From IMG/VR virus record IMGVR_UViG_3300034050_000451, positions 62,001 to 126,000 of that record: DNA of 64,000 nt. One strand, given 5' to 3'. The notes under the pieces are model-generated. The model searched no databases and was not told the origin of the DNA. It saw only the letters and a list, made by a program, of their open reading frames with translations. This DNA comes from a virus. Numbering within the stretch: position 1 is the first letter of the stretch; each line of letters starts with the position of its first letter. Positions 1,134-43,212 of this stretch are shown piece by piece. Made by a program: the position numbers and the translations under genes.

Positions 1134-1588
1134 TAGATATCTCTCATTTCAGTTTGTATAGAACTTCTACGTGTCATAAATGTAGAACATATAATTGAGA
1201 ATTTTTCTCCAGTCTGTCCACCAATTAATTGGTCCTCTCTTACATTATCAATTTCAAAGTATGCATTATTATGAGAAATAATATCTCCAATTTCTGGATA
1301 GAATCCCTTTCCCTCTAATGTGAAACGATTAAAACGGAATTGTACAGTCTGTCCACTATCTGGTCCAAATCCTTCATACGAAATACCAGTATCATCTCTC
1401 TCAATTACAGCAGTACATTGTGTTCCTTGAAAATACGATTTATTTAAAGATTCCCCATACAAATTTGTTTTCATATCAGAAATGACAAGTTTGTATAGAA
1501 CTACAGTTGTTTCAATAACTGCATCTACCAATTCTCTTGATATTCCTTCAAAAAATCGGATATCTCTATCTAATGCAAATCTTGGCAT
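1133..1588 (-). CDS. 14: gp14-like neck protein
   Basis: A 151-residue protein between the gp13-like and gp15-like genes. It carries a YGES segment early and a PEIGDIISHNNAYFEIDNV segment late, which parallels the T4 gp14 stretch in which a GD pair is followed by a FEI strand. T4 gp14 has 256 residues, so this would be a compact version lacking the C-terminal extension. In T4, gp13 and gp14 form the neck that seals the filled head and receives the tail. The gene starts one base after the stop of the gp13-like gene. Assignment depends largely on gene order; another head-completion protein is possible. Confidence 0.6.
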   Translation of the reverse strand: MPRFALDRDIRFFEGISRELVDAVIETTVVLYKLVISDMKTNLYGESLNKSYFQGTQCTAVIERDDTGISYEGFGPDSGQTVQFRFNRFTLEGKGFYPEIGDIISHNNAYFEIDNVREDQLIGGQTGEKFSIICSTFMTRRSSIQTEMRDI

Positions 1589-14328: not shown

Positions 14329-15465
14329 TTATTTTTTTAATTTTAAACTTCTTTGTGCGTTGGTTAAACCATCAATGATTGATTGCAATCCCCCCTTAAC
14401 ACCATCAGTATCTTTATCTTTAACTCTCTTATCTAAAATCTTTGTATTCATTTTTAAAAAGTTAATGATTGCATTTTCAACTGCGCTCCATCTAATTTCT
14501 TCTTCATTTACCGATTCATTCTTTTGGTGAAGTTTGATTGTAAGTCTTTGATTTGGATTACCATCGTGTCCAACCAATGCACTAACAAAATTCATTTTAC
14601 CTTGCAAGTTTGCTGATTTAATACTTTTGAAAAGTTTTACACCATCCAAATTATGTTTATCAATAAAGGCTTGAACCGCATCACCTCTTGTAGCAGTTAA
14701 TGCTGCAATTCCCATTGCTTCTTTACCAGCACCTTCAGTTACTACTGATTCTCTTTTATCAAGCTCAAAGTATATTCTACTTTTAACTTTTTGGAATGTA
14801 TCAGCTGCTAACTTAGCGTTACCAGTAAATCCCATCTCCAATCCAATTTCTTTTGAACGAATACCTTTTTTAGCCAATGCCATTATTTGAGCTGCTACTG
14901 GTTTAGAAACTACTTGAGTTGGTGTATCAACGTGAATGATATGTTTGAATGCCTCAGTTACTACTGATTCTAAATATACATATTTACCATCAAATGATGC
15001 TGCTATTTTTTTTGAATTTAAAAAATCTGCTGCTTTTTTAGCATTGTTTGGTGAATCATAAACCATTGCACCATCATCTTCTACCATTTTAAATCCCTTA
15101 TGAATACTACCCATATGTTTAGCAACTTCAGGAGATAACGATTCTTTAATAATATTCTCCATTAATCCAATTGCAATATCTTTAACTTCTCTTTCTGCAC
15201 CAGCTGCATATTTCTTATTTACAATTGCAATAGTGTTTCCAGATACTTTAATTCTATACATCGGTATCATTGAAGTTGAGAAATCATACTTTACACCAAT
15301 TTTCTTTAATTCAGAACCAACGTTCATAAATGATGATGCGTTTTTAACTGCTGCTTCAATTTTATCTAAATCAGCATCGTATCTTCCTTCGTTTACTGAT
15401 TCTATTTCTGAAAGAACTGATTCTTTCATAGTTTCTCTTACTATTTTTCTTAATTGCTCTTTCAT
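14329..15465 (-). CDS. Head-region protein with repeated ESVxE linkers
   Basis: A 378-residue protein of no recognised enzyme family. It starts with a basic helix, MKEQLRKIVRETMKESVLSE, ending in SVNE26|G27, and the same kind of linker recurs between folded segments: SVVTE171|A172, SVVTE244|G245 and ESVNE321. Each resembles the hydrophobic-x-Glu|Ala/Gly sites cut by T4-type prohead protease gp21, which is encoded two genes upstream. The segments between linkers look like small alpha/beta domains (28-165, 172-238, 246-315, 325-378); the third has a helix-turn-helix-like ATRGDAVQAFIDKHNLDGVK stretch. I infer a prohead core/internal protein that is cut into pieces during maturation; the T4 analogues by position are gp67 and gp68, without visible sequence similarity. 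Confidence 0.6.
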   Translation of the reverse strand: MKEQLRKIVRETMKESVLSEIESVNEGRYDADLDKIEAAVKNASSFMNVGSELKKIGVKYDFSTSMIPMYRIKVSGNTIAIVNKKYAAGAEREVKDIAIGLMENIIKESLSPEVAKHMGSIHKGFKMVEDDGAMVYDSPNNAKKAADFLNSKKIAASFDGKYVYLESVVTEAFKHIIHVDTPTQVVSKPVAAQIMALAKKGIRSKEIGLEMGFTGNAKLAADTFQKVKSRIYFELDKRESVVTEGAGKEAMGIAALTATRGDAVQAFIDKHNLDGVKLFKSIKSANLQGKMNFVSALVGHDGNPNQRLTIKLHQKNESVNEEEIRWSAVENAIINFLKMNTKILDKRVKDKDTDGVKGGLQSIIDGLTNAQRSLKLKK

Positions 15466-15467
15466 AA

Positions 15468-16016
15468 TTATTTTTTTCCTAAACGTTCTTTTACAATTTC
15501 ACCATCTAAATCAGAAATTTCATAGTATCTATTTAATATGTTACCCATATCTTCATAAAGTGAATGTAATCTCTCATCTAACTGTCTTGCTTCAGTTGCA
15601 ACCTTTTCAAATGCTTTATCCATTTTATCTAACTCACTCATATTTCTTTTGATGGTTACTTTATCAAACCAATCATCAGCTTCAGAAAGTGTTAGGGTTT
15701 TAGCAGCTTCTACGATTCCACCCAAAGTTTCAGCTACCTCAACGATATCTGAATTTCTTTTCATTTGCTCTTGGAATGTTTTATAAGTTGAAATAATTTC
15801 TAAGAAGTGTTTTTTAACTTCGTTTGATAATGGTCTATTATCTTCTAATGATTCAGCTATACTGAATTTACCATTAACTATTTTTACTTCATTGATATTG
15901 GTTTTACGAATATCATTATATCCCTTAGATACGTTATTACCACCCTTTTGTTCTACTTTTAAAGTAAAGGTGTTATTTGTTACATAATCGTATATGTCAA
16001 AGTTTTTCTTGCTCAT
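15468..16016 (-). CDS. Conserved head-region helical protein
   Basis: A 182-residue, mostly helical protein between the protease gene (one-base overlap) and the ESVxE-linker gene (2-base gap). The N-terminus is beta-rich, then candidate gp21-type sites NINE43|V44 and SIAE55|S56 precede a long helical region containing ADDWFDKVTIKRNMSELD, a segment I associate from memory with proteins of unknown function beside the prohead protease in other T4-like phages. The C-terminal half (about 120-180) is predicted coiled coil. Prohead core component is the likeliest role. Confidence 0.55.
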   Translation of the reverse strand: MSKKNFDIYDYVTNNTFTLKVEQKGGNNVSKGYNDIRKTNINEVKIVNGKFSIAESLEDNRPLSNEVKKHFLEIISTYKTFQEQMKRNSDIVEVAETLGGIVEAAKTLTLSEADDWFDKVTIKRNMSELDKMDKAFEKVATEARQLDERLHSLYEDMGNILNRYYEISDLDGEIVKERLGKK

Positions 16017-16603
16017 TATATTAATCCTGTTATGATTTCTCTCATTAAATCTTGTGCTTTACAAAATTCACCACAAACATCAGTACCAATAGATTTAACT
16101 ACCGATTCGTTCATAGGTGTCATAAATGCACCATGCGTAGATGGATTGGAAACAAAATCCCAACCGATTAATTCAAAGTCCTCTTGAACTTCTACTTTAT
16201 TTCCTTCTAATTGTCTAGTAGAACCCATACCTCTTGATGAGATACCTAATAGGATTCCAGCTCTTAACAATTCTTTTAATATGTTTCCAGATGGTGTTGG
16301 TAAGATTTCAACTGTACCACATAAATCATTACCTTCCCAATGAATTTCTCTCACATTATGAGATACGTTCTTCAAGTTGATTACAGACGAATCAGGGTGG
16401 TCTAATTCACCTAATGCTCGTCTTTCTTTGATAAGTGTTTCATATCTCTTTGCTTCTCTTTGTAAGATTGGCATTGGATATACTCTACCATTTTGGTTTT
16501 CCGCCCCAGCTCTTTGTAGGATTCCTTTAACGATAGTTCTACCAGAGGCATCTTCGTTAACTAATCCCTTAAACAAATTCGTTTCTATTATTAAGCTTTT
16601 CAT
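16016..16603 (-). CDS. 21: Prohead maturation protease gp21
   Basis: A 195-residue serine protease of the T4 gp21 type (herpesvirus-assemblin-like fold; T4 gp21 has 212 residues). Visible motifs are NGRVYPMPILQREAKRY, the histidine site GELDHPDSS (H69) and the serine site GISSRGMGS (S122/S123), followed by the strand LIGWDFVSNPSTHGAFM. It sits inside the immature head, degrades the scaffold and trims capsid proteins after hydrophobic-x-Glu. Its own N-terminus has a LVNE17 site that could be self-cleaved. The flanking genes on both sides encode proteins with many candidate sites for it. Confidence 0.9.
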   Translation of the reverse strand: MKSLIIETNLFKGLVNEDASGRTIVKGILQRAGAENQNGRVYPMPILQREAKRYETLIKERRALGELDHPDSSVINLKNVSHNVREIHWEGNDLCGTVEILPTPSGNILKELLRAGILLGISSRGMGSTRQLEGNKVEVQEDFELIGWDFVSNPSTHGAFMTPMNESVVKSIGTDVCGEFCKAQDLMREIITGLI

Positions 16604-19132: not shown

Positions 19133-20902
19133 TTATTTACTAATTTTTTCCTCGTCTAACAAATTTGAATCATCTAAAAAGTCAACTTTTTCTTTTATAA
19201 TTTGTTTTTTTGATGATATTCCGTTAATGTATTCTTTTGCAATATTTGCATTAACTCTAACCGCTGAACTTTCTCTTTTCAGAGCTTTTTGGTTTTCTTT
19301 AGCTCCTAATGGGTCTCTACCATAAGGATGTTTATCTTTACCATAAGTATTACCCTCTCTTGGTCTACCACCTTCATCCTTTAATTCCGTTTTAAGTTTT
19401 TCCAAACTTTCTTCGATATCAGTTGGTTGTTGTGGCATTGCCGGGTCATTTCCTTCGTTTTCAATAGCGTTATATCTGAATCTATCTTTGAGGTCATTTA
19501 TCATTCCAGCTTTTTGTTGGTCTACCTCATCTTTACTCATATTGAATATATTTTCATATGCCCAATCTTTAGAAATCATATTTAATGCATTGATATCAGA
19601 AACTAATCTTACTTTCTCACTCCAAAGGTTTACTTTCTCTTGCTCATAGATTGTAGATGGATTTACCAATGATAATTCAAAATCAACCATATCAGCATCT
19701 TCGATACCTTGAGATGCTAAATGTACAATTGCCAATTTAGTAAGTTCGGATACCAATGTTCTTTGGATTCTCTCAATCGTTCTTGCAAATCTTACATCTT
19801 CTGCAGCAAGTGTTGCTTTACCATTTACATTCTCATCATACCCCAAATATGCTTTTGGAATTTTAAGAGCTGCAAACAATTTGTTTTTTAAGTAATCAAT
19901 ATCTTCAATAGCTGTGTATTGTAATCCACCTAATGAATCAATTTGAGTACCACTATCACCACCCCTAACAGGTAAGAAGAAATCTTCAGTTAAGTTTTGG
20001 ATATTATATTTTAAGTTATAATCACCACTATTCTTATCAACAAATGGAACTTTCTTCATTTTGTTGATAATCTTTTGCATGTAGTTATCCACTTCGTTTG
20101 GTGGAATATTACCAATATCAATTTTGAAAACTCTCTTATCCGGTGCTCTCATAATTCTATGAATTAACATAGCATCTTCCATAAGAGAAACTTGTTTCCA
20201 AATTCTTCTACCATTTTCAATCATTGCCTTACCATAAGGTAAGAAGTTGGTATCTGATAATAATCTAAAGTGTACTACTTCATAGTTCTCATATTCACCT
20301 TTTCCAATAGGGTCATGATTAACTTTGAACTTAACATAGTTTGGATTATTTGGGTCAGTATTTTCCAATCTTTCAGTTTCATAAACTGGAAGTGGTTGTA
20401 CATTAATAATACCATTACCTGGTTGTATTTCCACCGAAAGGAAAAAATCACCATACTTAACCATATTACGAGTCCATGCCCATAGGTTAAATTCAATATT
20501 TAAAATATCATAGAAAAGATTTTCTAATAATGCTTTTACTTTTTCGTTTTGAGTTTTGATTTGAATTACATCTCCAAATTCATTCTTTAATGTAGATTCA
20601 TCTGAGTATATATCTAATGCCGATGATATAATCGGGTCATTATCCATAGCATCATAATCTCTAAATAATTCTCTACGAACTTGATGGTATGCCATTGACT
20701 GTGCAGCCATTTGGTCACCAGCAAATCCTCTTTGTAATTTAGTGTACCTATCTCTAAGGTTCAATAAATTAGTACTTCCTTGCTGTCTGTCATCAACATC
20801 AACTACTTTTCTCTTCCCATCCTTGTCAATTTTGACTACGGCTTGAGTAGAAAAGAGTTTTGTTAATCTTTGAAAAAACGTACTTTGTTGTTGTTCTGCC
20901 AT
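19133..20902 (-). CDS. 20: Portal protein gp20
   Basis: The portal ring protein through which DNA enters and leaves the head. With the start at 20902 it has 589 residues (T4 gp20: 524). Recognisable T4-type segments are DNDPIISSALDIYSDESTLK, GDFFLSVEIQPGNGI, RRIWKQVSLMEDAMLIHRIMRAPDKRVFKID, KAYLGYDENVNGKATLAAED and RTIERIQRTLVSELTKLA. The open frame runs 29 codons further upstream, but I prefer MAEQQQSTFFQRLTKLF because the longer form would overlap the preceding gene by 56 bases and begins with an atypical basic stretch. The C-terminal 90 residues are hydrophilic and variable (includes GGRPREGNTYGKDKHPYG). Confidence 0.92.
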   Translation of the reverse strand: MAEQQQSTFFQRLTKLFSTQAVVKIDKDGKRKVVDVDDRQQGSTNLLNLRDRYTKLQRGFAGDQMAAQSMAYHQVRRELFRDYDAMDNDPIISSALDIYSDESTLKNEFGDVIQIKTQNEKVKALLENLFYDILNIEFNLWAWTRNMVKYGDFFLSVEIQPGNGIINVQPLPVYETERLENTDPNNPNYVKFKVNHDPIGKGEYENYEVVHFRLLSDTNFLPYGKAMIENGRRIWKQVSLMEDAMLIHRIMRAPDKRVFKIDIGNIPPNEVDNYMQKIINKMKKVPFVDKNSGDYNLKYNIQNLTEDFFLPVRGGDSGTQIDSLGGLQYTAIEDIDYLKNKLFAALKIPKAYLGYDENVNGKATLAAEDVRFARTIERIQRTLVSELTKLAIVHLASQGIEDADMVDFELSLVNPSTIYEQEKVNLWSEKVRLVSDINALNMISKDWAYENIFNMSKDEVDQQKAGMINDLKDRFRYNAIENEGNDPAMPQQPTDIEESLEKLKTELKDEGGRPREGNTYGKDKHPYGRDPLGAKENQKALKRESSAVRVNANIAKEYINGISSKKQIIKEKVDFLDDSNLLDEEKISK

Positions 20903-20933
20903 TTTTGTTTTTGTTTTTATAACCTTTATTAAT

Positions 20934-21341
20934 TTACCAAGCTTTACAACTCCAATACCTTGCTCCTGTTTTTGGACCAGGTGTATCACAATTGTGTCTT
21001 GCTCTAAATGATGCTCTTCGTTCTGGGTCTGATTTTTTAATTCTCATAGTTTCTTCACCTGCTGATTTTGCTGATGTTCCGCCATGCCCAAAATTTACTT
21101 TTACAACATTCCCTTTTGGATTGTTAACATATACTTTAAACTTCTTAACATCACCTCTCATCGGTTTATTGAGTTTTACCTCTCTTCCCTGATATTCGGC
21201 TTCGTTAACTTCCCCCTTTATGGTTTTTAAGAATTCTATGAATTCTTTTAAATCATCGTAGTTTTCAACATAATATTCAGTAACATCTTCTTCGAAAATG
21301 CCTCTGATTTCATTGTAAAGTTCTAAAGTATAATTTTCCAT
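20934..21341 (-). CDS. Small conserved phage protein with gp21-type N-terminal site
   Basis: A 135-residue protein. An acidic helical N-terminus ends in EVNE47|A48, a candidate prohead protease site, followed by a compact domain: YQGREVKLNKPMRGDVKKF, a KFKVYVNNPKGNVVKVNFG strand pair, and a C-terminal ARHNCDTPGPKTGARYWSC motif with two cysteines and a conserved WSCKAW end. From memory this last domain is common near head genes of T4-like marine phages with unknown function. It lies between the terminase and portal genes. I infer an internal head protein whose N-terminal half is removed during maturation. Confidence 0.6.
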   Translation of the reverse strand: MENYTLELYNEIRGIFEEDVTEYYVENYDDLKEFIEFLKTIKGEVNEAEYQGREVKLNKPMRGDVKKFKVYVNNPKGNVVKVNFGHGGTSAKSAGEETMRIKKSDPERRASFRARHNCDTPGPKTGARYWSCKAW

Positions 21342-21402: not shown

Positions 21403-22989
21403 TTATAACCATTTACTTAAATCTTCAATACTACCATCCCCAACGTTCATTTGCCAAGGATTACTATCCATATCGTTACCACCATAAACACCACTATAAG
21501 TATATGATGATATACTGTTAATAGCTTGTTTTGTTAAATCAATACCCTCTTGTCTTAATCTAAGTGATGTATCTCTAACCCAAAGTGATATGGCTAATGC
21601 CATCGTAAGGTCATCATTATAACCACGCATTGCCTCAGCTCTACCATTGTTCCAAATGAATGTAAATAACTCATCTATGGTTCTTACTGAACGGATTATG
21701 ATTGATTTTTCTCTTACATACTCCTCCAACTTTGAAATAATCAAAGGTCGGGTTCTTGATGTGGTTGAGAATCCAGCTACCATACTTCTATCCTCCGAAC
21801 GATATTTGTTTGATAATTGATTATCCACATCCACATATTTTAAATCTCGAGATGTATAATACAAATTAGTATATCCCCTATCCAATACTTGTTGAATAGC
21901 TGCCCAACCAATATTTGCGTTTTCAATTACCAATAGTGCGTTGTTATATTCGGTTGCTAATGATACTAAGAAATTTCCAAAATCCTTTGTATCCAACTTA
22001 CCTCTATATTCTGCTACTTGCGCAGATGCTTCAACATCAATAACGTGTGCGGTAGAGTAATCCGAAGAATCTCCCCTCGAAACGTCAGCTGATACTATGT
22101 AAGTTTTATTATAGTTAGGATATTCCCATCTCCAAAGGTTTCCATCAAATCCACCTTTTTCTACTGGGTCTTGCACAAATGTTTCTTTATAAAATTGTAG
22201 GAGTTGTGGTTCGATTACACTATCTCCAGAAGATACGAAATCACAATCACACTCTTGAGCTGCTCCCTTTGTTCCTAATAGAACCTCTTGTTCATCTCGC
22301 CAAGCTTGCTCTCTTTCAGGATGTACACTCCAATGGATTCTAATATTATTAAATGAGTTTGTTCCATCTTCAGAACCTACCCAAGTTTTGTGGAAAAAGT
22401 TTCCAACACCATTTGGTGTAGAAAGGATAATTGCGTTACCCCCAGTTGATAATGTAGATTGTGCAGATACCCATATATCTTCAATCTTATCGATAAATGC
22501 CGCCTCATCAAATACTAATAAAGATAGTGCTTCAGAACGACCAGCATCACTAGCAGCAGATGTTGCTTTGATTTGAGAGCCGTTTGCATATCTAAGTGAT
22601 AATTTGTTATCCTCCACCGTTGTTAGTTTTAACCAACTTGGTAGATATTGATTCATAACCCTTACCTTAGTTACTAAGTTTTTAGCAACCTCTTGCTTTG
22701 TTGCAATAACCAATACGTTAAAATCATCATTAAATAGCATTTTCCAAAGTGAGAAACCAGCAGTCAATGTTGAGATACCAGTTTGTCTTGATTTTAGAAT
22801 AATATTATAACGATGGTCTTTAAACTGAGTTAGTGTATCTTCTTGAAACGGAAAAAGGTGAAAGGGTATTTTACCTTTCACCGGATGTTGAATCATACAA
22901 TATTTTCGCATGAAGTATATCGGGTCTTTTGCACACTTTTGATATTCTTCAGCAATAATTTGTTTTAATGATTTCTTTACTTCAGCCAT
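21403..22989 (-). CDS. 17: Large terminase subunit gp17
   Basis: The DNA-packaging motor ATPase and nuclease, 528 residues (T4 gp17: 610). N-terminal ATPase: Walker A-type LKSRQTGIST at about 65-74, Walker B LLVFDEAAFI with D161 and E162, and a coupling motif around ILSTPNG (189-194). C-terminal RNase H-type nuclease: first acidic residue in YIVSADVSRGDSS (D302), second in LVIENANIGWA, third in YNDDLTMALAISLW. It works at the portal (gp20), encoded two genes downstream. All catalytic acids are present, so it should be active. Confidence 0.95.
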   Translation of the reverse strand: MAEVKKSLKQIIAEEYQKCAKDPIYFMRKYCMIQHPVKGKIPFHLFPFQEDTLTQFKDHRYNIILKSRQTGISTLTAGFSLWKMLFNDDFNVLVIATKQEVAKNLVTKVRVMNQYLPSWLKLTTVEDNKLSLRYANGSQIKATSAASDAGRSEALSLLVFDEAAFIDKIEDIWVSAQSTLSTGGNAIILSTPNGVGNFFHKTWVGSEDGTNSFNNIRIHWSVHPEREQAWRDEQEVLLGTKGAAQECDCDFVSSGDSVIEPQLLQFYKETFVQDPVEKGGFDGNLWRWEYPNYNKTYIVSADVSRGDSSDYSTAHVIDVEASAQVAEYRGKLDTKDFGNFLVSLATEYNNALLVIENANIGWAAIQQVLDRGYTNLYYTSRDLKYVDVDNQLSNKYRSEDRSMVAGFSTTSRTRPLIISKLEEYVREKSIIIRSVRTIDELFTFIWNNGRAEAMRGYNDDLTMALAISLWVRDTSLRLRQEGIDLTKQAINSISSYTYSGVYGGNDMDSNPWQMNVGDGSIEDLSKWL

Positions 22990-24406: not shown

Positions 24407-27400
24407 CTATTCGTAAAATAATCCAAGAATTTGATTTAATGGTGCAAATGTACCTGTTAGTTTCATTGTATTTCCATTGTACACAAATACGATACCTTCG
24501 TTTGGAACTATTTTATCTTTTCCACCAATAGCGTTTAATCTTTGTAATTCCATTTTAAGTTTTGCTATCTTCTTTTCATCACCACCAGTCTTAACATCTG
24601 ATATAGTTTTATCTAATCTATCCTTCATAGCTCTAACCGCAGAATCAGGGTTTGCTGTAAGTACTGAACTCATAAATGAAAGTACTTCAGAGCCAACACC
24701 CAAAAATATATCCTCAAAAGGTCTAATATTATCCTTTGCTATCTTAGCGTGGTCATTCTTATCAATACCAGTTGCCCAACTTAATACTTTAGCATCGGTA
24801 ATGTTTTTATTGTCTAAACGGAATGATTTATCATAGAATGCCCATCTCTTAACCAATCCCATTAGAGTTCTATTATCAATCGGAGATGGTGATTTCTTAG
24901 TTACAAAATCAGTCCACCATGCTTGATGATAATCAGCAATACCATCCGTATCGGATAGTTTAAACTTAGATTGTAGTTTTGTAATCTGTCCACTATATTT
25001 TCCTTTTAATGAAGTTAAGTTTTTTGATTGTGGTAACTTAACAACTGGAGGTCCTTGTATTGTATAAGCCGATTGTACGTTTTGATTTACTTGCTTAATC
25101 ATACCAGCCAAAACTTTAGCTGCTTCTTGATTTTCACCAATTGCTATACCAGCTTCATTATATTCCATTGTTCCATGAAATACTAATAGTGCTTGTCCAT
25201 AAGGAATTACATTTACCGAAGTTGGATATATTACCTCCAAATTCATAAAACATGCACCATTCTTAAAAACTTTTTCTCTTTGTTTTTCTGAAAGTGATTT
25301 TATTGCTTTTGATAAATCACTCATAGCAAAGTTGTATGCTTTTTCTAACTCACCTCTTCCGGCAAACTTAGTAGCTACTCCATTTATATCCAATGCCTTC
25401 TCACCTCTATTAGCTAGATGTCCTTTGTTTCTAGCAGCAACTAATCTTCCATTCACCCAACTGATTGCTAATGCTTGTCCATCAGTTTTTTCTCTTGTCA
25501 ATTCCAACTTACCTTCTAATGCACGATTCACAATATCTTTAAGTTGTCCAAATGTTAAGTTAATTTCAGTATCAAATGGATGATTCATATGTCCATACGC
25601 ACCACCTTCAGTTAATAACCCCTCAGTTATGTTTGGGTTATTATCAGTTCCACATTTGTGACACATATAGGTATCACTTCCACCTTCAGAAATTTTCCAA
25701 CTCCAACCACAATTATCACAAATTACTTTACCATTTTCTACTCTTTCACTAATCCCACCACCCAATGCGTATGGTTCGTTATATTGTAATTTCTCAGCGT
25801 TAAATTTCTTTCTTAATCTTTTAAGAACTTCTTTATGTTTATCAATCCATGCTTGGTCTGGGTAACCCATTCCAATTCCTTCAAATGCTGATTTGGTTTT
25901 TACTTTATACCAACCACCACCCGGTGTTCTGAATATTCTTGCAGGTATTTCTAATATTCCATTTGATGGTAATTTAGAATGATACTTTGAATCAATATGA
26001 ACAACCTTTACAATGAATACTTTTTTCTTATTATCAGCTCCAATCAATTCAACTTCTAATGGAACTGCTACTCCACCTATTTTAAGTTTACCACCAAAGA
26101 TATTACCTTTAGTGTATGCTTCTTCTACTGATTTTTTAACCATTTCATATCCTTTATCTTCGGTATCCTTTGTATTTGTTTGATGACCAGGTTCTGTTTT
26201 TTTACTATCATCAAAATCAATTGTATCCAATTCTGCACCATATCCCATATCAGGTGTATATGTTCCCGATTTGTGATGTTGTAAAAAATTATGGTCTATT
26301 GTACCATCCGATTTATGATTTTTTGAATTAATATTTTCATTTTTACTTATTTCAATTGCTCTTAATTGCTTAAGTGCTTTCTCTTTAGTATCATGTGTTC
26401 CTAATCTATCACCACCATCCTTTGGATATACCACCCACTTACCATCAATATGTTTGATTGTTTCAACAGTCAATTTCATTGATTCTTTGCTTCTAAAATC
26501 TCTAGTTCCACCTTTATTATCTTTAAATCCGAATGATTTATAGAATTGGATTAATCTTCCCTTAGAACCCCCAAAATCAGATGATGGAGTTAAGAATACA
26601 TCTTTTTTGGTTTTCTTTGCATAAGTAATAATATCATTCATTACTTTTGTACCAATACCCTCACTTCTTTTTTCTTTTGGAACAACTATTCTGTGAATTT
26701 CTAAGTATTCTGGATATTCATATACATCCAATTCCACACCATGTTTTTTCCCCAAATGAGAGTCTAACGTTTCAGCAATTACTGATTCAAATTTATATTC
26801 AGGTGTTGTTGTTTTGAATTCACCTTTTCTCATTATAGTTTTTGCAATAGCTTTATTAGCTTGAAGCATAAATGGTATATTGATATTAGTTCTATTATCC
26901 TTTGCTACAACTTGGTTGTATTGAGTTAAGAATTCAACAAATTTCTTTTTATTTCTACCTAATCTTTTAAAGAACCCAGTTAGTTCTGCTGCTGATATTT
27001 CCTTACCATTTCTCGTATCATTTAATCTATCGAAAAAATGTTTATCAGTAAGAACGATATCAATTGGATTTAATTGTCTATCAGCGTATTTATCAATTTG
27101 TTGTAAATCAGCCATTGGGATTTCGTTAATTACCGATTCGTTTTTACCAGTATCTGCTTTTTTAGCAGCAACACCAATTTCTTCTGCAAATTTATTTGAC
27201 ATTGGTATCACATCCTTTATATCGGCATCAATAACAATAACTTTCATATTAGCAGGTTTCCCATCTCTAATTGCGTTTGTTGTTACAGCTGCCCAACGAT
27301 GATGACCATCCACTACATATCCATCTCTACTTACATAGATTGGAGCAGTAATCTTTGGATGATTCGGGTCATTCTCTAATGCCTTTGCCATACCAGCTAC

Positions 27401-28879
27401 CTTTGCACCAACTAATTCAGATTGAGTTGCTTTTAGAGAATCCGATGGTAATTCAGTTTGGATAGTTTTAATACCCTTTCTTTTCAATAGTTCTCTAAAC
27501 ATTGGTTCCGTATCAACTTCACCATTTATATCTTTTTCCATACTTGCCGCAGGTGAACCTTCGGTTGGTTTGCCTTTAAATTGTGGCATTTCCTCACGAG
27601 GAATTCCAGCATTACCAGCACAATATAAGTTTGTTCCAGCTACAGTTATTTTACATAAATTGTAATTAGGAGCTGCTTCACCATTTTCTTTTGCCTGATT
27701 TGTTAGTTGAACCAACTTATCAATCTGCATTGAAATTTCTCTTTGTTGCTTATTTGAAATTTTAGGAATATCCGATTCTGAACTAAATGTATCTGAATCT
27801 GCTTTTGGTAATACCTTAGTTACATTATCTAATGCAACATTTGGTATTTCAGTTTTGGGTTTTTCTTTTTGCTTAACATCAGGTGCATGTTTAAACATAT
27901 CCGAACCGGCTACTTTAGTTCCTTTAGATGGTTCCGATTTTGTATCACTAGCTCCATCTATTTTAACATACTTACCACCATCATTCTTTGAAAAAGATGG
28001 AGAAGATTCATCATCCTCTTTACCTTTTTGTTTATACACACCATGTCCAATATGAGTGTATTTGGAATCATCATTTTCATCTTCAAAGATTACTTGATAT
28101 CCTTCCTTTATCATTCTAAAAGTTGCTACCTTTTTACCATTGATAGTTGGCATTCCATGTTCATCTTTTCCAATAGTTTTTACAATAACTTTTTTATTTT
28201 TAAATCTACCCATTAAAATGGTATCTCCGATTTCAACATCTAATGTAATACCTTCATCTAAATTAATTGATTCTGGTAATTTGGAAAGTTTATCAACAAC
28301 CATATCAAAAATTGATTGATTGAATTTACCATAAGCTTTCTTTACAAAGAAATCTTTTTTATCCTCAGTACTACCTTTTTTTAAACCAATCCTAACATCA
28401 GTACCACTAATTGCATTTGGTTGTGCTGGTGATATAAAAACATACCCCCTATCAGCATATCCTTCCAATTCAATACTATCTTTGTATTTTTCAAAATACT
28501 TCCCACCCAAACGACTTGAATCTTTCTCACCAACCACAGTTATAAATGCAGTAGTTTCTTTATTGAATTTGCTTAGGATTTCAGTTGGAGCATAGGGATT
28601 TTTGACCTGAGCTATTTTGTTTGATGGGATACCAAACATAGTGGTCATTACCTTTACTTTCTCCTTAAAATTGAATGGGGATTTTTGATTGTCTGTTTTA
28701 TCAGAGGTTCCGATATAAACATTATTTTTTCCAAACTTTTTTACTAATGTTTGGTAAGTAGCGAAGTGCCCTTTATGAAAAGGTTGAAAGCGACCAGAGT
28801 AAACAACAACTAAGTCCTTTACACTGCTCGCTTCTCCTAATAATATACTCTCTACTAAAAACTTTGATAAATCACTCAT
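24407..28879 (-). CDS. 1490-residue multidomain protein: nucleotidyltransferase, ParB-like, GNAT and ligase-like domains
   Basis: Domains in order: an N-terminal helix ending LLGE16|A17; a HxGH cytidylyltransferase/NMN adenylyltransferase-like domain (22-190; HKGH 35-38, ISGTDVR 157-163); a small beta domain (210-258); a hydrophilic linker; a ParB/sulfiredoxin-like domain (about 470-560, VVDGHHRW with D524, H526, H527, R528); a helical domain (595-690); a GNAT acetyltransferase domain (about 710-800, RSEGIGTKV as the acetyl-CoA loop); a beta domain (925-1010); a zinc ribbon (CDNC 1054-1057, CHKC 1073-1076); and a covalent nucleotidyltransferase (ligase/capping-type) domain with motif I KTDG (K1131), motif III around NLEVIYP (1213-1219), motif IV EGIVFV (E1461) and motif V MKLTG (K1473), with a long insertion between III and IV. 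Linkers carry gp21-like sites at E209|G210, E586|I587, E703|T704, E920|A921, E1086|G1087 and E1091|G1092. I infer a capsid-packaged polyprotein cut by gp21; substrates are unknown. Confidence 0.7.
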   Translation of the reverse strand: MSDLSKFLVESILLGEASSVKDLVVVYSGRFQPFHKGHFATYQTLVKKFGKNNVYIGTSDKTDNQKSPFNFKEKVKVMTTMFGIPSNKIAQVKNPYAPTEILSKFNKETTAFITVVGEKDSSRLGGKYFEKYKDSIELEGYADRGYVFISPAQPNAISGTDVRIGLKKGSTEDKKDFFVKKAYGKFNQSIFDMVVDKLSKLPESINLDEGITLDVEIGDTILMGRFKNKKVIVKTIGKDEHGMPTINGKKVATFRMIKEGYQVIFEDENDDSKYTHIGHGVYKQKGKEDDESSPSFSKNDGGKYVKIDGASDTKSEPSKGTKVAGSDMFKHAPDVKQKEKPKTEIPNVALDNVTKVLPKADSDTFSSESDIPKISNKQQREISMQIDKLVQLTNQAKENGEAAPNYNLCKITVAGTNLYCAGNAGIPREEMPQFKGKPTEGSPAASMEKDINGEVDTEPMFRELLKRKGIKTIQTELPSDSLKATQSELVGAKVAGMAKALENDPNHPKITAPIYVSRDGYVVDGHHRWAAVTTNAIRDGKPANMKVIVIDADIKDVIPMSNKFAEEIGVAAKKADTGKNESVINEIPMADLQQIDKYADRQLNPIDIVLTDKHFFDRLNDTRNGKEISAAELTGFFKRLGRNKKKFVEFLTQYNQVVAKDNRTNINIPFMLQANKAIAKTIMRKGEFKTTTPEYKFESVIAETLDSHLGKKHGVELDVYEYPEYLEIHRIVVPKEKRSEGIGTKVMNDIITYAKKTKKDVFLTPSSDFGGSKGRLIQFYKSFGFKDNKGGTRDFRSKESMKLTVETIKHIDGKWVVYPKDGGDRLGTHDTKEKALKQLRAIEISKNENINSKNHKSDGTIDHNFLQHHKSGTYTPDMGYGAELDTIDFDDSKKTEPGHQTNTKDTEDKGYEMVKKSVEEAYTKGNIFGGKLKIGGVAVPLEVELIGADNKKKVFIVKVVHIDSKYHSKLPSNGILEIPARIFRTPGGGWYKVKTKSAFEGIGMGYPDQAWIDKHKEVLKRLRKKFNAEKLQYNEPYALGGGISERVENGKVICDNCGWSWKISEGGSDTYMCHKCGTDNNPNITEGLLTEGGAYGHMNHPFDTEINLTFGQLKDIVNRALEGKLELTREKTDGQALAISWVNGRLVAARNKGHLANRGEKALDINGVATKFAGRGELEKAYNFAMSDLSKAIKSLSEKQREKVFKNGACFMNLEVIYPTSVNVIPYGQALLVFHGTMEYNEAGIAIGENQEAAKVLAGMIKQVNQNVQSAYTIQGPPVVKLPQSKNLTSLKGKYSGQITKLQSKFKLSDTDGIADYHQAWWTDFVTKKSPSPIDNRTLMGLVKRWAFYDKSFRLDNKNITDAKVLSWATGIDKNDHAKIAKDNIRPFEDIFLGVGSEVLSFMSSVLTANPDSAVRAMKDRLDKTISDVKTGGDEKKIAKLKMELQRLNAIGGKDKIVPNEGIVFVYNGNTMKLTGTFAPLNQILGLFYE

Positions 28880-29310: not shown

Positions 29311-30063
29311 CTAACTGAAATTTTCAGAAATTACACTTACCCCACGTTTTTGTATAACCTGAGATGAACATCGATTTCCAAATATAATTGATTCATTAAT
29401 ATTATTTGTTTCCAAATACTTTGTAGTGAATCCTGCTACAAAAGTATCACCTGCTCCTGAGATATCCATTATCTCAACTTTATCAGTTGGATACATATTG
29501 TTTAAATACATACATCCATCTTTATCTAATGTGATTATTAGTTTTTCTAAAATCCATTCATTATTTTCAATAAATGATTTATTATTTTGATATTCGGTTC
29601 TGTTTAATTTAATGAACTTTAAATCAGTGCACCATTCTCCTAATTTTTTTTTAGTATCACAAATTGTATTAGGGTGATTAAATGCTATTTTAGCAATATC
29701 AGTATCACTTAGAAATCCTTTGTTATAATCCGATATGACTATCATATCAAAATCATAAAAATTTATTTCAGAAAGTGTATTACCAATAGGCGGAACTACA
29801 TCATCAATATCAACTCGTAAAAGTAAATGATTAAAACTTTCCTCAACATATCTCTTTTTTACAATCAATTGAGTATTACAAATCAATTCAGTTTTACAAC
29901 CCAATGCTTCTAAATTTTCTTTAACATTATAAGCCATACCACCATTGGTGATTGTATGTGATTCTATAAAAACAGGTGCAGGTCCTTCAGGTGATAATCG
30001 TGTAGCTTTTCCATAAACGAATTCATCTAAACATCCCTCACCTATAATTAATACTTTACTCAT
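29311..30063 (-). CDS. HldE-type heptose-7-phosphate kinase (PfkB family)
   Basis: A 250-residue ribokinase/PfkB-fold kinase most like the N-terminal half of HldE (RfaE), which phosphorylates D-glycero-beta-D-manno-heptose 7-phosphate at C1. Visible motifs are the sugar-binding GGMAYNV (41-47), SDYNKGFL (111-118; compare SDYGKG in HldE), LNRTEY and the catalytic/anion-hole DISGAGDTF (200-208, D206). It is shorter than the HldE kinase domain (about 320 residues), so part of the lid is reduced. It overlaps the nucleotidyltransferase gene by 8 bases, the reverse of the single fused HldE of bacteria. Together the pair would make an activated heptose (ADP or CDP form). Other sugars are possible since the family is broad. 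Confidence 0.72.
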   Translation of the reverse strand: MSKVLIIGEGCLDEFVYGKATRLSPEGPAPVFIESHTITNGGMAYNVKENLEALGCKTELICNTQLIVKKRYVEESFNHLLLRVDIDDVVPPIGNTLSEINFYDFDMIVISDYNKGFLSDTDIAKIAFNHPNTICDTKKKLGEWCTDLKFIKLNRTEYQNNKSFIENNEWILEKLIITLDKDGCMYLNNMYPTDKVEIMDISGAGDTFVAGFTTKYLETNNINESIIFGNRCSSQVIQKRGVSVISENFS

Positions 30064-30445
30064 TTGTTAATATTTTAGTTGTACTGAAATCATCCATTCG
30101 ATTAAAATACACAATTGATTTTGCGTATTGTTCTCCCACTATTGGTTTATTTTTATAATCAGACCCAATTACAAATATATCAGGGTTATATGTTTTAATT
30201 ACATTTTCTAATAATTCAGCTGAATCAAATATAACTACTTTACTAACTCCTTTAATTCTTTCCAAATTATACTTTCGTTCTTCTTCAGTATGGAACGGTC
30301 TATCTTCTCCTTTTAATTCCTTTACTCTCCTATCGGAATCAATTCCAATAATAACAATATCACCAAAGGCAGATGCGAACTCAATCATCTTAAAATGCGC
30401 ATGATGTAAAACATCAAAACATCCATTTAACCAAACCTTTTTCAT
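30056..30445 (-). CDS. HldE-type sugar nucleotidyltransferase (split C-terminal half)
   Basis: A 129-residue cytidylyltransferase-like protein matching the C-terminal domain of HldE, which adds AMP to heptose 1-phosphate. It has NGCFDVLHHAHFKMIEFA (the HxGH nucleotide-binding site, here HHAH at 14-17 with Ala in place of Gly), GIDSDRRVKELKG, RPFHTEEER, and the final STTKIL (compare STT-I-I in HldE). The Gly-to-Ala change in HxGH is unusual and could lower or change activity; glycerol-3-phosphate cytidylyltransferase is the main alternative family. The start overlaps the heptosyltransferase gene by 4 bases (ATGA), and its end overlaps the kinase gene by 8. Confidence 0.75.
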   Translation of the reverse strand: MKKVWLNGCFDVLHHAHFKMIEFASAFGDIVIIGIDSDRRVKELKGEDRPFHTEEERKYNLERIKGVSKVVIFDSAELLENVIKTYNPDIFVIGSDYKNKPIVGEQYAKSIVYFNRMDDFSTTKILTNE

Positions 30446-34551: not shown

Positions 34552-37500
34552 TTATCCCGTTGGAAGATTACCAATAGCTATCCAATACCCATCAACACTA
34601 TCTAATACTAAACTAACACCAGATGTGGTAAGGTTATATATATGATTATATCCATTTGAACCATTTGAACTTCTATAAGATGCACAAGTTACAACCGGTG
34701 GTGAACCAAATGTTACAGGGAATGTTACGTTAGCAGAACTATTTATTCTTCCCCATTGTATAATACTACCATCTGATAATTTTTGGTAATTATTTGTAGA
34801 CATTGAACTAGCAACCGTATTTGTTTGGTGTTGGTTTCCTAATCCAATAAGGTTATCGGTATAAGTATATGCAAACCTATTTGATGAGTTACCAATATTG
34901 TACAATGAATCAGATTCAGGTATAATATCACCCTTTGAATTAATAGCTGTTGAGGTATCAACCCCAAGACCAACTGTTTTTTCAAAATATGATATACCAC
35001 CGGCTGCTTTAAGTACTTCTTGATTAGCTGAACCTGCTGGTTTTCTTGGTATTCTAACATAGGTATCAGGTGTTGATACTACTTGAATACCACCGGCTTT
35101 AATCTCAACGAAATTGGATGGAACAGATACATTTAATATAGTATCGTATGTTGGTGTATTTGCTAAAGTTGGCCCAACAGTATGTGATTGGTATGTAAAT
35201 GAATATGAATTAATACTGGAACCAATATTTGCTCTTTGACCCGAATACCCATAAAATCTAATTGAATATCTAAATCTAATATTACCAGTAGATGTTAGAT
35301 TCATTGAGCGCGTTACACCAGTTTGGGCAGAAACATTATTTTGATAACCACTTATAGTGTTGGTTGAAATATATGTCCAAGTACCATCATTATGTGATAT
35401 AATATCATCTGAAACATAGTTATGAACTCCAGGTACAGAAAATGTATATACCCATTCATCGGTTTTAATAATTTCAACACTATCAACTAATACCAATTTA
35501 ATACCATTACCATCTTTGATGTTAATCATACTTTTACCAGCAACTAATTCAACAGTCTTTATTTGTTTATTATCGTTTAACCAAAATCCATGCGAATCAG
35601 ATACTCTAATAGTTTTACCACCGGCTGATACTTTGTAAACTTTATCAACTTTTCTCTTTTTAATTTTAGCTATTTCAAATTCACTAAATTTGTTTACTTC
35701 AGTATTATCTAATTTATCATTCCAACTCCATGCTATTATTTTTTCACCTTCAACAACATCTTTAGCAAGAATAGTTTCACCAGATGATAATATAATTTTA
35801 GTATCACCAGTTACGGATACAAAACTTTCAAGTTTTACGTTGTGGGTTAATATACCATTAACATAATAAGTATGCTTACCAGATACTCTAATGTTATAAA
35901 CATCATCGGTTTTCTCATTTATAGTTATTGATGTTATCTCAACTTCTTCATTTTCTGAATTTAGGAATATATCTCCAACATTTATTTTATCAGTTGTTTT
36001 AATACACCAAACACCATTTTGTTTAATAATATGTTTGTGTGAGTGTGTACATTCAATTAATCCATTATTTATATTGTAAATTTCATTATCAGCATATGAT
36101 TTGATATCCAACACCTCTTCAATTGTTTTTTCGGAATCGGATATATGGGTTGCAGTCCAATCATTTTCTTCGGAATATTTTGGTGTTAATGAATCAATAT
36201 CTAATGATTTAATAAAATCACCAATTTGAATATCTTTAATTTGTTTGAATGAACCATCACCCATTTCAATTAGTGATGTTCCAACTAAACACGTTCCACC
36301 TCCCCCTTCTTCTATATATTCTCCGGTATAATAATTACCAGCATTATATGAACTAACAGCTGCGGCTGTTCCAAGTAAAGTTCTACCCACAACAACACCA
36401 GTAGAAATATTAACTGCTTCTAAATTTAATTCTGCGTATGCAACAGATGGTGATGAATACCCACCATGGAATTGCCCATTGAATGTAGGTAAATACGATG
36501 GGTATGATGTGGTATGACTAACTCCTGCTGGAATTGATACAGATACGGCTGGTATATTTAGTGCAACTTCAAGTGCTCCTGCTGCTGTAACATTATATGA
36601 ACCCGTTGATGGTAATGATACCATATAACTCGAATAAACAAAATTGGCATTAGATGTATTTGTTGTTACCGATTGTGGTGTTGGATATACAACCCCCGAA
36701 CCCGTAAACTGAAAGTATTTAACATCACCTGTGGTTGTTGTTAATTCATTTGAAGGTGATATAATTACCTTTTTTTCACTACCAGTATAAAATTGTAATT
36801 CAGGTAAAGATGGGTCAAATATTATTTCACTATTATCATCACGTAAATTACCACTATCAGCATCAATAATCCAATCTCCGATTCTACCATCAGTTGCGTT
36901 AATACTACCAGATAAACCTGCATTATTAGCGTTTACATTTCCATTAGCATCAACAGTAAAATTATATCTAATTGGATTTGAACCAGAAATTATTCCTATG
37001 TTAATAGCTCCTCCATTTATTTCAGAACCATTAATTGTTGAACCTTGAACGTTTCCTGAGAAATTAACACCATCACCCGTATAGTTCAAATATGCACCAT
37101 CTTTACTTCGTAATGAGAATAACGGGTCATCTGACCCAGATGGAAATCCTAAAAATACACCAACCTCATCAAAACTTTGACTTAATTGCCCCATTGAAAG
37201 GTATGGTTTATCGGATTGATTTAATGTTGAACCTGATGTTGATAATCGCAATCCCTCACCAGAAATTATTCTAAATTCACGACTACCCGCTGATAATGAA
37301 CCTTGTGTATATGTGTAATCACCATTGGTATTGGGATAATAATAAGAGGCACTTGCGGCGGAATTAAATTTAATTGTTTGACCATATGGATTTGATGCTG
37401 ATAGAAATAATCGAGTTTCATCTTCAGAAATTCCATAAATTTTCATTGCAGGGAAATTCAAAACATTACCAATACCCAATACAGCTACATCAAATGCTTT

Positions 37501-40500
37501 TATAATATGAGATTTTAAATCACTTGGTACTTCTGGATATGCACTTTCAGGTTGGTCATAAAGTAATTCTTGTATAAAATCATAATATGATAATGGAAAA
37601 TCACCAGTTTGCCTTACTTCTAAATAATTTGCACCAGATGGCCATGCAATATATGAGTCTAAAGAAGAAGATACGACTTGCAGTGATGATGTTGTGTGGA
37701 ATGCAATTTGATAAGATGAACTATCTGCATATAATCCATTTGATAAAAATAATTTTGAATTACCAATTTCACTATTACTTGCACTATTACTTGCGCTTAA
37801 TATTCTATGATTCGTAGTAAGTGTACCAAATACCGTTAAAAGTGCAGAACCACTACCATCAAATGGATTAGGTCCTTTAAGTGCTCTATTTGCTCCAAAA
37901 CCTACTAGATTATTCAACCCAGCATATACATCATTATGTAGAGATGCTGTTACTTCCGTATTATATTGATATCCAACGGGGAATGTAGTTGGGAAGTAGA
38001 TACCAGATGGGTCAATTATCCATCCACCAAATTTACCAGCAGATGCTGATACAATACCAGATACATTTAATTCATTTCCATCCCAACGTAAGTGTCTTGT
38101 ACCATCACCATTTTCAATTGATAATAATCCAGTTGTTCCAGCAGTTCCAGTAGGTCCACCATCTTCAGTTACACCAATATAAACTCCCTTTTGTCCATAA
38201 CCTTGAATTGATTGTCCGATTGATATATATGGTTCACTATCTCCACCATAAATTGTAATTTGTGGATTAACATCATATGAAGTTGCTGGTGAACCTACAT
38301 TAATTGTATTTTTAATAAATGATTCTTCGAAGATACCAATCTTAGCTGCTACAAAGAAATCTTCTTCTCCTAACTCTTCCCAATAATCAGTTTGAGTATT
38401 AGGTTGTTTGGCGCCAATTAAAGTATATCCAGAGGGTACAGTATCAATTGATTGAGTATATAATCCAGAAACAGTATTTGATAAATAAGTATGAGGACCC
38501 GATGGTAATTTAGTTGCGTAATACATCTCAGGTGTACCATCTCCATTCTTATCAAATAAAACTGCATCTCTCCTTTTCTGATTTAAATCAAAAAGATAAT
38601 TAGTTGAACCACTCCACTCTCCTCTAAATACAACACCAGGACCAGTTGCTCCTTCAAATACTGTTGTTAATGATTGTGATAAGAAATAAGTTGCTCTACC
38701 ATTTTCTATATCAACTTTATAAACAATTGTAGCTGCTTTATTATCTTGTGGATTTGCCCAAGTTTGAATTGGTGCCACCGTAGCAGGACTTCCTGTTGGT
38801 CGATTTGTTTGAGTTATAAATCCGGGTTTACTATATAATGATGCTGAGAATTCTCCCAATGTACCAATAACATTACCAATTAAATCTAATGTTTCCTCAG
38901 AGTAAGTACTAACATGCGTTAATTCAGTAGTTCCTTTAAATGCTCTAATTTGTGTACCAGTACCAGTTAACGTTGTACTTCCATCAGTTTCAACTAATAC
39001 AGCAGTTGCTGGATTTGTTAATGAAACTTGATAGTTATCAGCTCCCGCTTTTATACCAGTAATAGTTACTTCAGATGTAGCAATTACCCCAGAGGTAGTA
39101 TTACCATCTCTAATTTGAACTTGCCATGTTGCATTTTCGCCAGGAGATGTAGCATCACCGGAACCAATTTCAAATACATTATCAGTACTAATTGTACTAT
39201 AAGCAAATCCATCTTTAAAATATTGGTAATAAGTTTGAGATGCGGTAACATTAAATGCAGTTGCCGTTAAAAATATTGAATCTAAGGGAGAAGTTACTAC
39301 ACCATCTCCATCAAAATTAACTACTAATGATGATGCAGCCAAACTAACCGAACGAGCATTTACTCCTTCTTTTTGTTTTGTAAAAGATTGTGTACGAGTT
39401 ACATATTGTGAACCAGTTACAATACCATTTGTAATTGAAAATGGTCTTATTAAAATTGAATAATCAATACTAGCTGAATCATCCGTCATATTACTCATTG
39501 ATACAAATAACATTGTATCATTTAACCCATTATCAGTTGTTTCCGTTTTTGATGCAGTTAATAAACCAACAGTAATATTATTTACCGAAATAGATGCGGT
39601 AAATGTTCCTGGTAATTCTTGTGAATTAAACTCTAAATATTCATCACCTTGCTTAACTTTTAAAGTTGTGTTTGTTGTTGTGTAATCATATACACCACCA
39701 TTTTCATCAGCAGATAACGCGAGTATTGTTGGGGCTAATTCAATATTGATTGCAGCTGCCCCATCAACACTTTTTTGGAATTGTTGAAAGAAACTTTGTG
39801 TATAATAAGATGCGGTATAGAATGGATGAATTTCTAATTTATATTCAACACTAGCGGTTAAATCAGTCATATTGCTAAATCCACTTATACTCATAGATGC
39901 ATCTCCCATTATTTCATCAAAGGTAGAATATTGAATTCCTTTTGTAATAATAGATGCAGTTGTAAATGTACCCGGTTTTTTACTACTTGTAAATATAAGT
40001 GGTAAGAATCCCTGCGTTATAGTAATATCCGTAGCTGCTGTTTCATAACTAAATACTCTACCTCTTTGGTCAGCATTTAAAGTTATTGGATTTGGATTAA
40101 TTTTTACTACAATTGCATCATCACCCGGGTCTCCATCGGGTACAGATACGAATGTTTTATCAATACTAATAGATGCTGATGTATAATCTTCTAAATAAGT
40201 AAATTTAGTACTTAATTGTTTTGTTTGAACTGCTTCATAAAATGGAATACCATTTTGACCGGGAATACCACTATTAATTATATTATTATCAAAATCCGTT
40301 ACCTCAACACTAATTCTTCTATCAAATGTACCGGTAACATAAAACATATAGTAATATGGTTCAATTGTTTCCGGGTCAACAGACATCGATGGGAATATAT
40401 TCAATGTACCACTTATAGGTGCTTCGTTTGTTCCTCTCAAATAGAATGAACCAGTTACTCTACCAATATTTGGAGTAAACTCTCTTTCGGTTCTTGATTT

Positions 40501-43038: not shown

Positions 43039-43212
43039 ATGAATAAGAAATATGCTATGTTACAAATTGATGCTGAGGTTCATCAATTGTTAAAAGATTT
43101 TTGTAAAGATAAGGGTTATAAAATGAATGGGTTGGTTGAGAGTCTAATTAAAGATAAAGTATCCCCATTTAAAACTCAACAACCAACCAATATTTTAAGA
43201 ACTAGAACTTAA
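43039..43212 (+). CDS. Ribbon-helix-helix (Arc/CopG-like) small DNA-binding protein
   Basis: A 57-residue protein, the only rightward gene I can support. MNKKYAMLQIDAEVHQLLKD begins with a short beta strand (YAMLQID) followed by two helices (DAEVHQLLKDFCKDKG and MNGLVESLIKDK), the exact pattern of ribbon-helix-helix repressors, which bind DNA as dimers through the strand. The C-terminal tail is basic (NILRTRT). The gene meets the nuclease gene end to end with an 11-base convergent overlap. A phage transcription regulator is likely; possible targets are the repeated AAAATTTTCCA sites at 47565-47678, but that is only a guess. Confidence 0.65.
   Translation: MNKKYAMLQIDAEVHQLLKDFCKDKGYKMNGLVESLIKDKVSPFKTQQPTNILRTRT

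Follow-up and report, generated by a model that had tools for sequence, protein, structure and literature searches.

Prohead proteases are known for trimming head proteins, and RNA-virus proteases process polyproteins. In phage T4, the internal head proteins Alt and IPI-III carry a short, capsid-targeting N-terminal leader that ends in IxE or LxE; T4 propeptides are 10–20 residues long, and gp21 cuts Alt at both ends, at ITE-6 and LTE-619 (PMC5694885). Polyvalent proteins, such as DdrB/DarB of phage P1 and the PLxRFG proteins, contain many unrelated effector-type domains per chain and are encoded beside virion genes (PMC5512222). Multiple xxE-type protease sites are found in the head proteins, including ejection proteins, of phiKZ and SPN3US (PMC10052503). 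The gene studied here, P0001, lies in a window of 64,000 nucleotides (positions 62,001 to 126,000 of IMG/VR record IMGVR_UViG_3300034050_000451) and resembles these systems in its unrelated domains, its leader, its T4-like head cassette and its E-type sites. We consider it probable that P0001 is a head-packaged polyprotein of injected enzymes, cut at [LIV]xE by a gp21-like protease.

P0001 is a single reading frame with 0 internal stops, as determined from the ORF list and translation (Table 1), and because several other IMG/VR contigs contain the gene at 100% identity, it is no assembly chimera. The source genome is that of a T4-like jumbo phage of 270.9 kb, in which the gene belongs to a head cassette with terL, portal and gp21-like prohead protease genes. 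The first and last domains and the position before terL are conserved in approximately 150 related phages, whose middle modules differ in order and content; both the module swapping and the fixed location are direct observations. The prohead protease gene is close by in those relatives whose loci have long enough flanks. The earlier note on this DNA had described several unrelated enzyme-like domains, joined by low-complexity linkers, in one late-phage protein. The 1490-aa frame and the domain matches agree with this, and linkers do lie between the domains, but the evidence favors a polyprotein with prohead-protease-type [LIV]xE sites over one multi-domain protein. Absent from that description were the 14–16-residue leader, the modules at residues 587–703 and ~921–1010, and the DUF2188-like domain at ~807–865.

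Table 1. Coordinates (window positions) of the P0001 gene, its predicted parts and two neighboring head genes.
Feature	Positions	Strand	Residues	Preceding junction	Basis or remark
Whole gene P0001, putative polyprotein	24407..28879	-	1490 aa		ORF list and translation
Leader MSDLSKFLVESILLGE, capsid-targeting-like	28832..28879	-	1-16		ends LGE before A17
HIGH-type nucleotidyltransferase, NMNAT-like	28253..28831	-	17-209		Pfam PF01467, PDB profile matches, alignment
Small GDTILMG...GKKVATFR module	28082..28252	-	210-266	LDE (209)
SKYTHIGHG segment and ParB-like DGHHR region	27122..28081	-	267-586	IFE (266)
HFFDR module	26771..27121	-	587-703	INE (586)
GNAT acetyltransferase	26462..26770	-	704-806	IAE (703)	Pfam
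DUF2188-like small domain	26285..26461	-	~807-865	TVE
NIFGGKLKIGG...PGGGWYKVK module	25745..26119	-	921-1045	VEE (920)
Zinc ribbon CxxC-x18-CxxC	25607..25744	-	1046-1091	ISE (1045)
Covalent nucleotidyltransferase, RNA-ligase-like	24410..25606	-	1092-1490		alignment, AlphaFold2 model, fold matches
gp21-like prohead protease, presumed cutter	16016..16603	-			PHROG head maturation protease, 1.7e-50
Terminase large subunit, fixed neighbor	21403..22989	-			PHROG 1.1e-48; downstream of the polyprotein gene in ~150 loci

The HxGH nucleotidyltransferase noticed earlier was confirmed at the N-terminus, which scored above the family cut-off of Pfam CTP_transf_like (PF01467; E 4.4e-8). When the profile of this family was compared with the PDB, the best matches were all NMN/NaMN adenylyltransferases (E down to 7.6e-7), covering the first ~64 residues. 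GRFQPFHKGH and SGTxxR are both found in P0001, whereas alignment revealed that the first H of HxGH is replaced in some distant family members (GPHH). NCBIfam NMNAT models gave at most 31.3 bits against curated cut-offs of at least 127; hence the label NMNAT-like and not NMNAT. A NAPRTase, sought in the phage record as support for an NAD pathway, was not found.

The C-terminal domain contains the KxDG, R, E, EGI and K signatures common to ATP-dependent RNA ligases, namely K1131 xDG, R1150, E1215, E1461 GI and K1473. The catalytic signatures are intact: across 56 sequences, the most distant of them at 37% identity, KTDG, the motif Ia R, the central E, EGI and the terminal K do not vary, so the loss of catalytic residues that the earlier note had named as a refutation was not seen for this domain. 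In the AlphaFold2 model (pLDDT 78.5), K52 coincides in position with the catalytic Lys of T4 Rnl2 (2hvr), the Palaeococcus ligase (8uch) and T4 Rnl1 (2c5u), and the first 22 Foldseek matches are RNA or DNA ligases, with modest scores (E of 2.5e-3 or above, VIA Z of 5.2 or below). In contrast to RNA ligases, the P0001 domain has its central and EGI motifs separated by a long segment that is mostly helical. The sequence profile gave chance matches only against the PDB, and the sequence family is absent from PHROGs and below the Pfam cut-off. No homologs of this last domain were found on plasmids, and those in cellular genomes are limited to four contigs, all in MAGs, which are probably binned phage.

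The middle modules are supported to varying degrees. The GNAT domain described earlier is supported by a match to Acetyltransf_7 (4.8e-5) just 0.7 bits short of the cut-off, a homologous module in L029 at or above the cut-offs of Acetyltransf_7 and Acetyltransf_1, and an RxxGxG motif that reads RSEGIG in P0001. The putative zinc ribbon has weak profile matches to HypA/DZR, and similar CxxC...CxxC ribbons are found in other polyproteins. For the ParB-like region, the DGHHRW string is invariant across eight relatives, but profile matches are weak (PHROG ParB 0.0017; Pfam ParBc_2 E 0.12 at best) and the module profile had no match in the PDB, so the ParB-like assignment is weak. The DUF2188-like domain matched Pfam PF09954 (0.029) and PADLOC PDC-S16 (4.3e-4). 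The modules starting at residues 210 and 921 are mobile; some copies of the former open an ORF behind their own leader, and conservation of the latter runs to about residue 1000. The HFFDR module occurs in at least 581 related loci. Its invariant H, R, K, T and R residues and a weak Pfam RegB match in two of 13 members (0.0017) suggested a RegB/BECR-type RNase. The HFFDR profile had no PDB match, however, and structure prediction, which gave modest support to the C-terminal ligase fold, returned a low-confidence model here (pLDDT 49), so this assignment is at most tentative.

An [LIV]xE motif recurs in the linkers. Modules without detected mutual similarity start right after a Glu, which mostly closes an [LIV]xE site. 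At the junction before the last domain, which lies outside the peptide patterns used for locus retrieval, P1 is Glu in 102 of 106 distinct contexts (two Met and two Cys in the other four) and P3 is Leu or Ile in all 106, with a variable P2 and 96 distinct strings at P5–P12. Glu directly precedes the 210 module in 32/32 distinct contexts, and at the HFFDR junction it stands immediately before the module in 43 of 50 and one residue earlier in seven; these context counts are not independent, as the contexts are related by descent. In the same proteins, the background is 2.3% for [LIVA]xE and 8.2% for E. At some junctions P3 is not hydrophobic although Glu is present (KKNE, KVE, TVE), one retrieval pattern (IFEDENDD) spans the 266 site, and further sites are located at the zinc ribbon (ITE at 1086, LTE at 1091). 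At the start of the 921 module, the junction shifts about a conserved Glu; the module ends in xAFE, after which various other modules follow. The density of [LI]xE in the middle regions was 1.45 times the expectation, close to that of some other spacings; whole-region density was therefore set aside as proof of cleavage sites, and the case rests on position.

The same sites could be read as remnants of gene fusion in an ordinary polyvalent protein, injected as one uncut chain after removal of the leader alone. Fusion of separate leader-bearing genes would leave such [LIV]xE remnants, and large injected proteins are exemplified by the N4 virion RNA polymerase (PMC5512222) and P1 DarB (PMC9024508). 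Remnants should decay, yet P1 Glu and P3 Leu/Ile persist in nearly all contexts, and P2 and P5–P12 vary freely across unrelated modules; we regard the uncut chain as unlikely. The cleaved polyprotein also accommodates the modules that occur alone. At least four exist in other phages as single proteins, each with a leader that closes with this site: the ligase-like domain in L078/L083 follows MKFLKSYEEFLNENLILE, which is succeeded by GG, GNAT in L198/L199 follows a leader ending LKNFITE before N, the SKYTHIGHG/ParB-like segment is encoded in L173 and L177 by separate genes whose leaders terminate in LLE and VNE, and the fourth is the 210 module. Among cultured relatives, Microcystis phage Mel-JY01 has a two-domain form in which IAE precedes GG at the domain boundary, and Flavobacterium phage immuto has the form with separate genes.

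Packaging is suggested by the leader, which [LI]xE closes at residue 14–16 in 36 of 36 distinct N-termini. In the source genome, leaders are enriched in the head cassette (Fisher p 5e-4), and ES[VI]x1-3E occurs six times in the remaining cassette proteins (4,268 aa) vs five times in 74,853 aa elsewhere, although the ES[VI]xE motif was itself derived from the same protein set. With the test applied here, half of the head-cassette proteins lack a leader, and the neighborhood alone is therefore no proof of packaging. This leaves some room for an unpackaged late intracellular multifunctional enzyme that serves RNA or NAD metabolism and is encoded among head genes by coincidence; the literature search found no virion proteomics for these phages, including Sinorhizobium phage phiM12 and Flavobacterium phage immuto. 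Such an enzyme would explain neither the fixed position before terL nor the leader in all N-termini, nor the modules shared with head-packaged proteins, as tblastn matched the ParB-like, GNAT and 617–801 regions to DarB-like and PLxRFG phage proteins (E 2e-16, 5e-6), and it appears very improbable. That the junction Glu and Leu/Ile are part of each domain fold, for instance as an N-terminal strand or helix cap, and are unconnected with proteolysis, as their position right next to conserved domains and a mostly Leu/Ile P4 before the last domain might imply, is the least probable reading, since the same signature precedes several modules without detected similarity, residues 1–18 of the ligase-like model, which span the last junction, are disordered (pLDDT <50), and in stand-alone proteins the same residues close a short capsid-leader-like N-terminus.

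Taken together, the leader, the junction Glu, the cuts in T4 Alt and the stand-alone modules argue that a gp21-like protease probably frees the enzymes in the prohead. In this polyprotein model, the 16-residue leader would target the chain to the prohead core, and the protease would remove it and then cut the linkers, yielding some eight to ten individual mature products: the NMNAT-like nucleotidyltransferase, the small modules, the ParB-like, HFFDR, GNAT and zinc ribbon products, and the RNA-ligase-like adenylyltransferase. These would exit the head together with the DNA and could immediately target RNA, NAD or proteins of the host or the phage, most likely to counter host defenses or take control of the host's metabolism. 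With somewhat less confidence, we favor extending this to a widespread uncultured T4-like clade with interchangeable effectors between two fixed nucleotidyltransferases, freed in the head by the prohead protease, where new effectors are gained by inserting a site-flanked module. If so, the prohead protease doubles as a polyprotein processor in a dsDNA phage group, and a constant leader and a constant last domain, with a site at the module boundaries, provide a simple rule for reading injected phage proteins. This rule would yield a catalog of early anti-host functions, including modules without a known fold such as HFFDR.

The comparison with T4 Alt, whose role the earlier note had proposed by analogy, needs to be narrowed. 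Capsid delivery is now better supported by the T4-sized leader ending in [LI]xE and the fixed place before terL/portal in ~150 loci; Pfam, PHROG and NCBIfam profile scans detected no ADP-ribosyltransferase domain in P0001, so P0001 resembles Alt in how it would be delivered and processed but not in the kind of enzyme it carries. Moreover, Alt and IPI-III are each a single product, whereas P0001 has many modules and several internal sites. The extra sites of phiKZ and SPN3US head proteins lie in discarded propeptides (PMC10052503), while the putative sites of P0001 lie between enzyme domains. The HExxH peptidase motif, found in L044, L047 and L050, was not found in P0001; as the metallopeptidase hub is common but not universal in polyvalent proteins, its absence is compatible with membership among them. 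The constant NMNAT-like and RNA-ligase-like ends are not among the features reported in the consulted portion of Iyer et al. (2017, PMC5512222). Unlike polyvalent proteins with a metallopeptidase, P0001 apparently leaves separation to the prohead protease at [LIV]xE. Judged from sequence, P0001 is akin to both polyvalent and T4 internal proteins and is set apart from them by having no peptidase of its own and by its probable use of the prohead protease as separator.

The strongest support for reading the 1490-aa window protein as a polyprotein appears to come, on sequence evidence, from modules that occur alone in related loci (L-numbers; a slash marks the proposed cut). In a 462-kb phage the ligase-like domain is a gene of its own that starts MKFLKSYEEFLNENLILE/GGSYGH, and in L198/L199 the GNAT stands alone behind the start MKQNSISENTSLVNILKNFITE/N. 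The ParB-module gene follows leaders ending LLE and VNE in L173 and L177, and the small 210 module also heads an ORF, following MKKLTEWLVKPFL(E/K)E. For these four modules the end of the leader corresponds to the junction position in the polyprotein. Flavobacterium phage immuto carries a run of small genes ahead of the terminase large subunit gene (terL), several of them with similar N-termini.

The junctions themselves are marked in a similar way. All 36 distinct N-termini have a leader with [LI]xE at residue 14–16, and before the last domain Leu or Ile stands two residues ahead of the final position in 106/106 distinct contexts, with Glu at the final position in 102 of the 106; the residue between them and those further upstream are variable. 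Glu precedes the 210 module in 32/32 contexts and the HFFDR module (587–703) in 43 of 50, the other seven having Glu one residue earlier. The 920 module follows xxE, and its conserved end, xAFE, leads into different modules. A hydrophobic residue is absent at some junctions. By chance, a random position in the same regions would show [LIVA]xE 2.3% of the time, and the junction contexts are not independent of each other. One boundary signature common to several modules without detected mutual similarity would be hard to explain by domain structure. Two contexts from seven loci (L162, L163 and relatives) lack Glu at the last junction, which reads ELLLM/GGAYGHM, and are natural exceptions to the site rule.

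The T4 prohead protease gp21 strips 10–20-residue leaders off internal proteins and cleaves Alt twice, at ITE-6 and, close to the C-terminus, at LTE-619 (PMC5694885); in the window protein, ITE (1086) and LTE (1091) sit immediately ahead of the last domain. An xxE specificity with variable P3 is usual in this protease family, given that the SPN3US protease cleaves after A-x-E (PMC10052503). Within this genome, ES[VI]x1-3E motifs number 6 in 4,268 aa of other head-cassette proteins and 5 in 74,853 aa elsewhere, a density about 20-fold higher for a motif picked after the data were seen. Five such motifs (ESVLSEI, ESVNEG, ESVVTEA, ESVVTEG and ESVNEEEI) occur in a 378-aa protein whose gene lies between those for the core protein and the protease. 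This protein has the look of a second head polyprotein, smaller than the first.

The window covers bases 62001-126000 of a viral record of 270,865 bases. To judge from their predicted products, the minus-strand genes surrounding the proposed polyprotein gene are a T4-like head cassette. In transcription order the polyprotein gene is upstream of terL, with three small genes between. The multi-domain frame noticed earlier holds: its 4.5-kb ORF is open and intact, and identical copies lie in several other contigs. Searching viral contigs at the protein level gave 74 related loci, and a search with a Microcystis phage homologue gave 80 more. In about 150 loci the gene precedes terL; where the flank reaches far enough, the protease gene lies downstream.

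Genes of the window (window numbering) and one gene elsewhere in the same phage
Feature	Position	Strand	Match
Major head protein	11077-12717	-	5.5e-72
378-aa protein	14329-15465	-	
Head maturation protease	16016-16603	-	1.7e-50
Portal	19133-20989	-	Pfam Portal_T4, 5.6e-69
Terminase large subunit (terL)	21403-22989	-	PHROG, 1.1e-48
Proposed polyprotein	24407-28879	-	
Split-HldE-like pair	29311-30445	-	PF01467, 5.2e-21 (nucleotidyltransferase)
Putative tail-fibre protein	34552-42921	-	
SbcD-like/SbcC-like ORF	43202-46333	-	
Conventional RNA ligase (outside the window; numbering of phage record G000)	174659-175252		RNA_ligase family, 5.4e-16

Among the other genes, the 2789-aa putative tail-fibre protein has a gp53-like C-terminus and an intein/Hint-type match around residues 2209–2511. 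An SbcD-like nuclease and an SbcC-like ATPase, the equivalents of T4 gp47 and gp46, appear fused in one 1043-aa ORF. A sugar-kinase-like gene adjoins an RfaE/HldE-type nucleotidyltransferase gene, split-HldE-like by sequence; their late-region neighbours include glycosyltransferase-like genes.

Protein lengths among the relatives run from about 765 to 2000 aa: the two end domains are kept throughout, and it is the middle whose length, composition and order differ. Among the domains seen in other members are a CCA/poly(A)-polymerase head (L034, 2.8e-29; L063, 4.8e-31), a DUF5661 domain and an HExxH module. Mel-JY01, in a two-domain version, is the only named isolate in the phage collection with both end domains; the last domain was also matched there in two uncultured phage records.

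The proposed HxGH nucleotidyltransferase is backed by Pfam as a cytidylyltransferase-like N-terminus (4.4e-8). Its family profile matched NMN and NaMN adenylyltransferases in the PDB over the first ~64 residues only, and it scores far under the NCBIfam cut-offs of NMNAT models; we therefore name it NMNAT-like. The GNAT assignment, slightly under the Pfam cut-off in the window protein (4.8e-5), is supported by the homologous module of relative L029, which meets or exceeds the cut-offs of two models. The tentatively ParB-like module has an invariant DGHHRW with weak profile matches, and the zinc ribbon pattern is CxxC-x18-CxxC.

For the last domain, which the earlier note took for a covalent nucleotidyltransferase, loss of catalytic residues was sought in homologues, and the signature proved invariant across 56 sequences with identities as low as 37%: the KxDG residues K1131, D1133 and G1134, the following R (R1150), the central E (E1215), EG of EGIVF (E1461, G1462) and a late K (K1473). 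Pfam RNA_ligase is touched by 29 of the 56 (best E 9.4e-4), and PHROGs holds no real family for the domain. With an AlphaFold2 model (pLDDT 78.5), the first 22 Foldseek rows were all RNA/DNA ligases, at a modest best E of 2.5e-3. VIA alignments, also of modest score, place model residue 53 on residues 36 of T4 Rnl2, 93 of the Palaeococcus ligase (8uch) and 100 of T4 Rnl1, which in the model puts K52 (K1131) on the catalytic lysines K35, K92 and K99; the latter two are named by mutant entries K92A and K99M, and K35 we take to be that of T4 Rnl2. Signatures and register agree, but with fold-match scores this modest the ligase fold is a candidate. Unlike classical ligases, the domain has a long stretch, mostly helical, separating the central motif from EGI. 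The phage of the window also has a conventional RNA_ligase family gene.

We propose that the polyprotein would be packed into the prohead core, directed by its leader, and cut by the protease during head maturation, and that the separate enzymes would then be injected. The NMNAT-like enzyme, the ligase-like adenylyltransferase and, in some relatives, the CCA/poly(A)-polymerase head hint at a role that is less likely than not: repair of NAD or of RNA ends, to counter defence systems acting by NAD depletion or tRNA cleavage. NAD-restoring pathways are known in phages (PMC12774641); a NAPRTase was sought in the window's phage record and none was found.

Neither a prohead protease as separator nor this fixed two-ended architecture was found described in the passages of PMC5512222 covered or in the other open literature searched. 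Among the closest known systems are the polyvalent proteins of PMC5512222, multi-domain injected proteins whose domains are suggested to be freed by an embedded metallopeptidase, and which are there likened to RNA-virus polyproteins.
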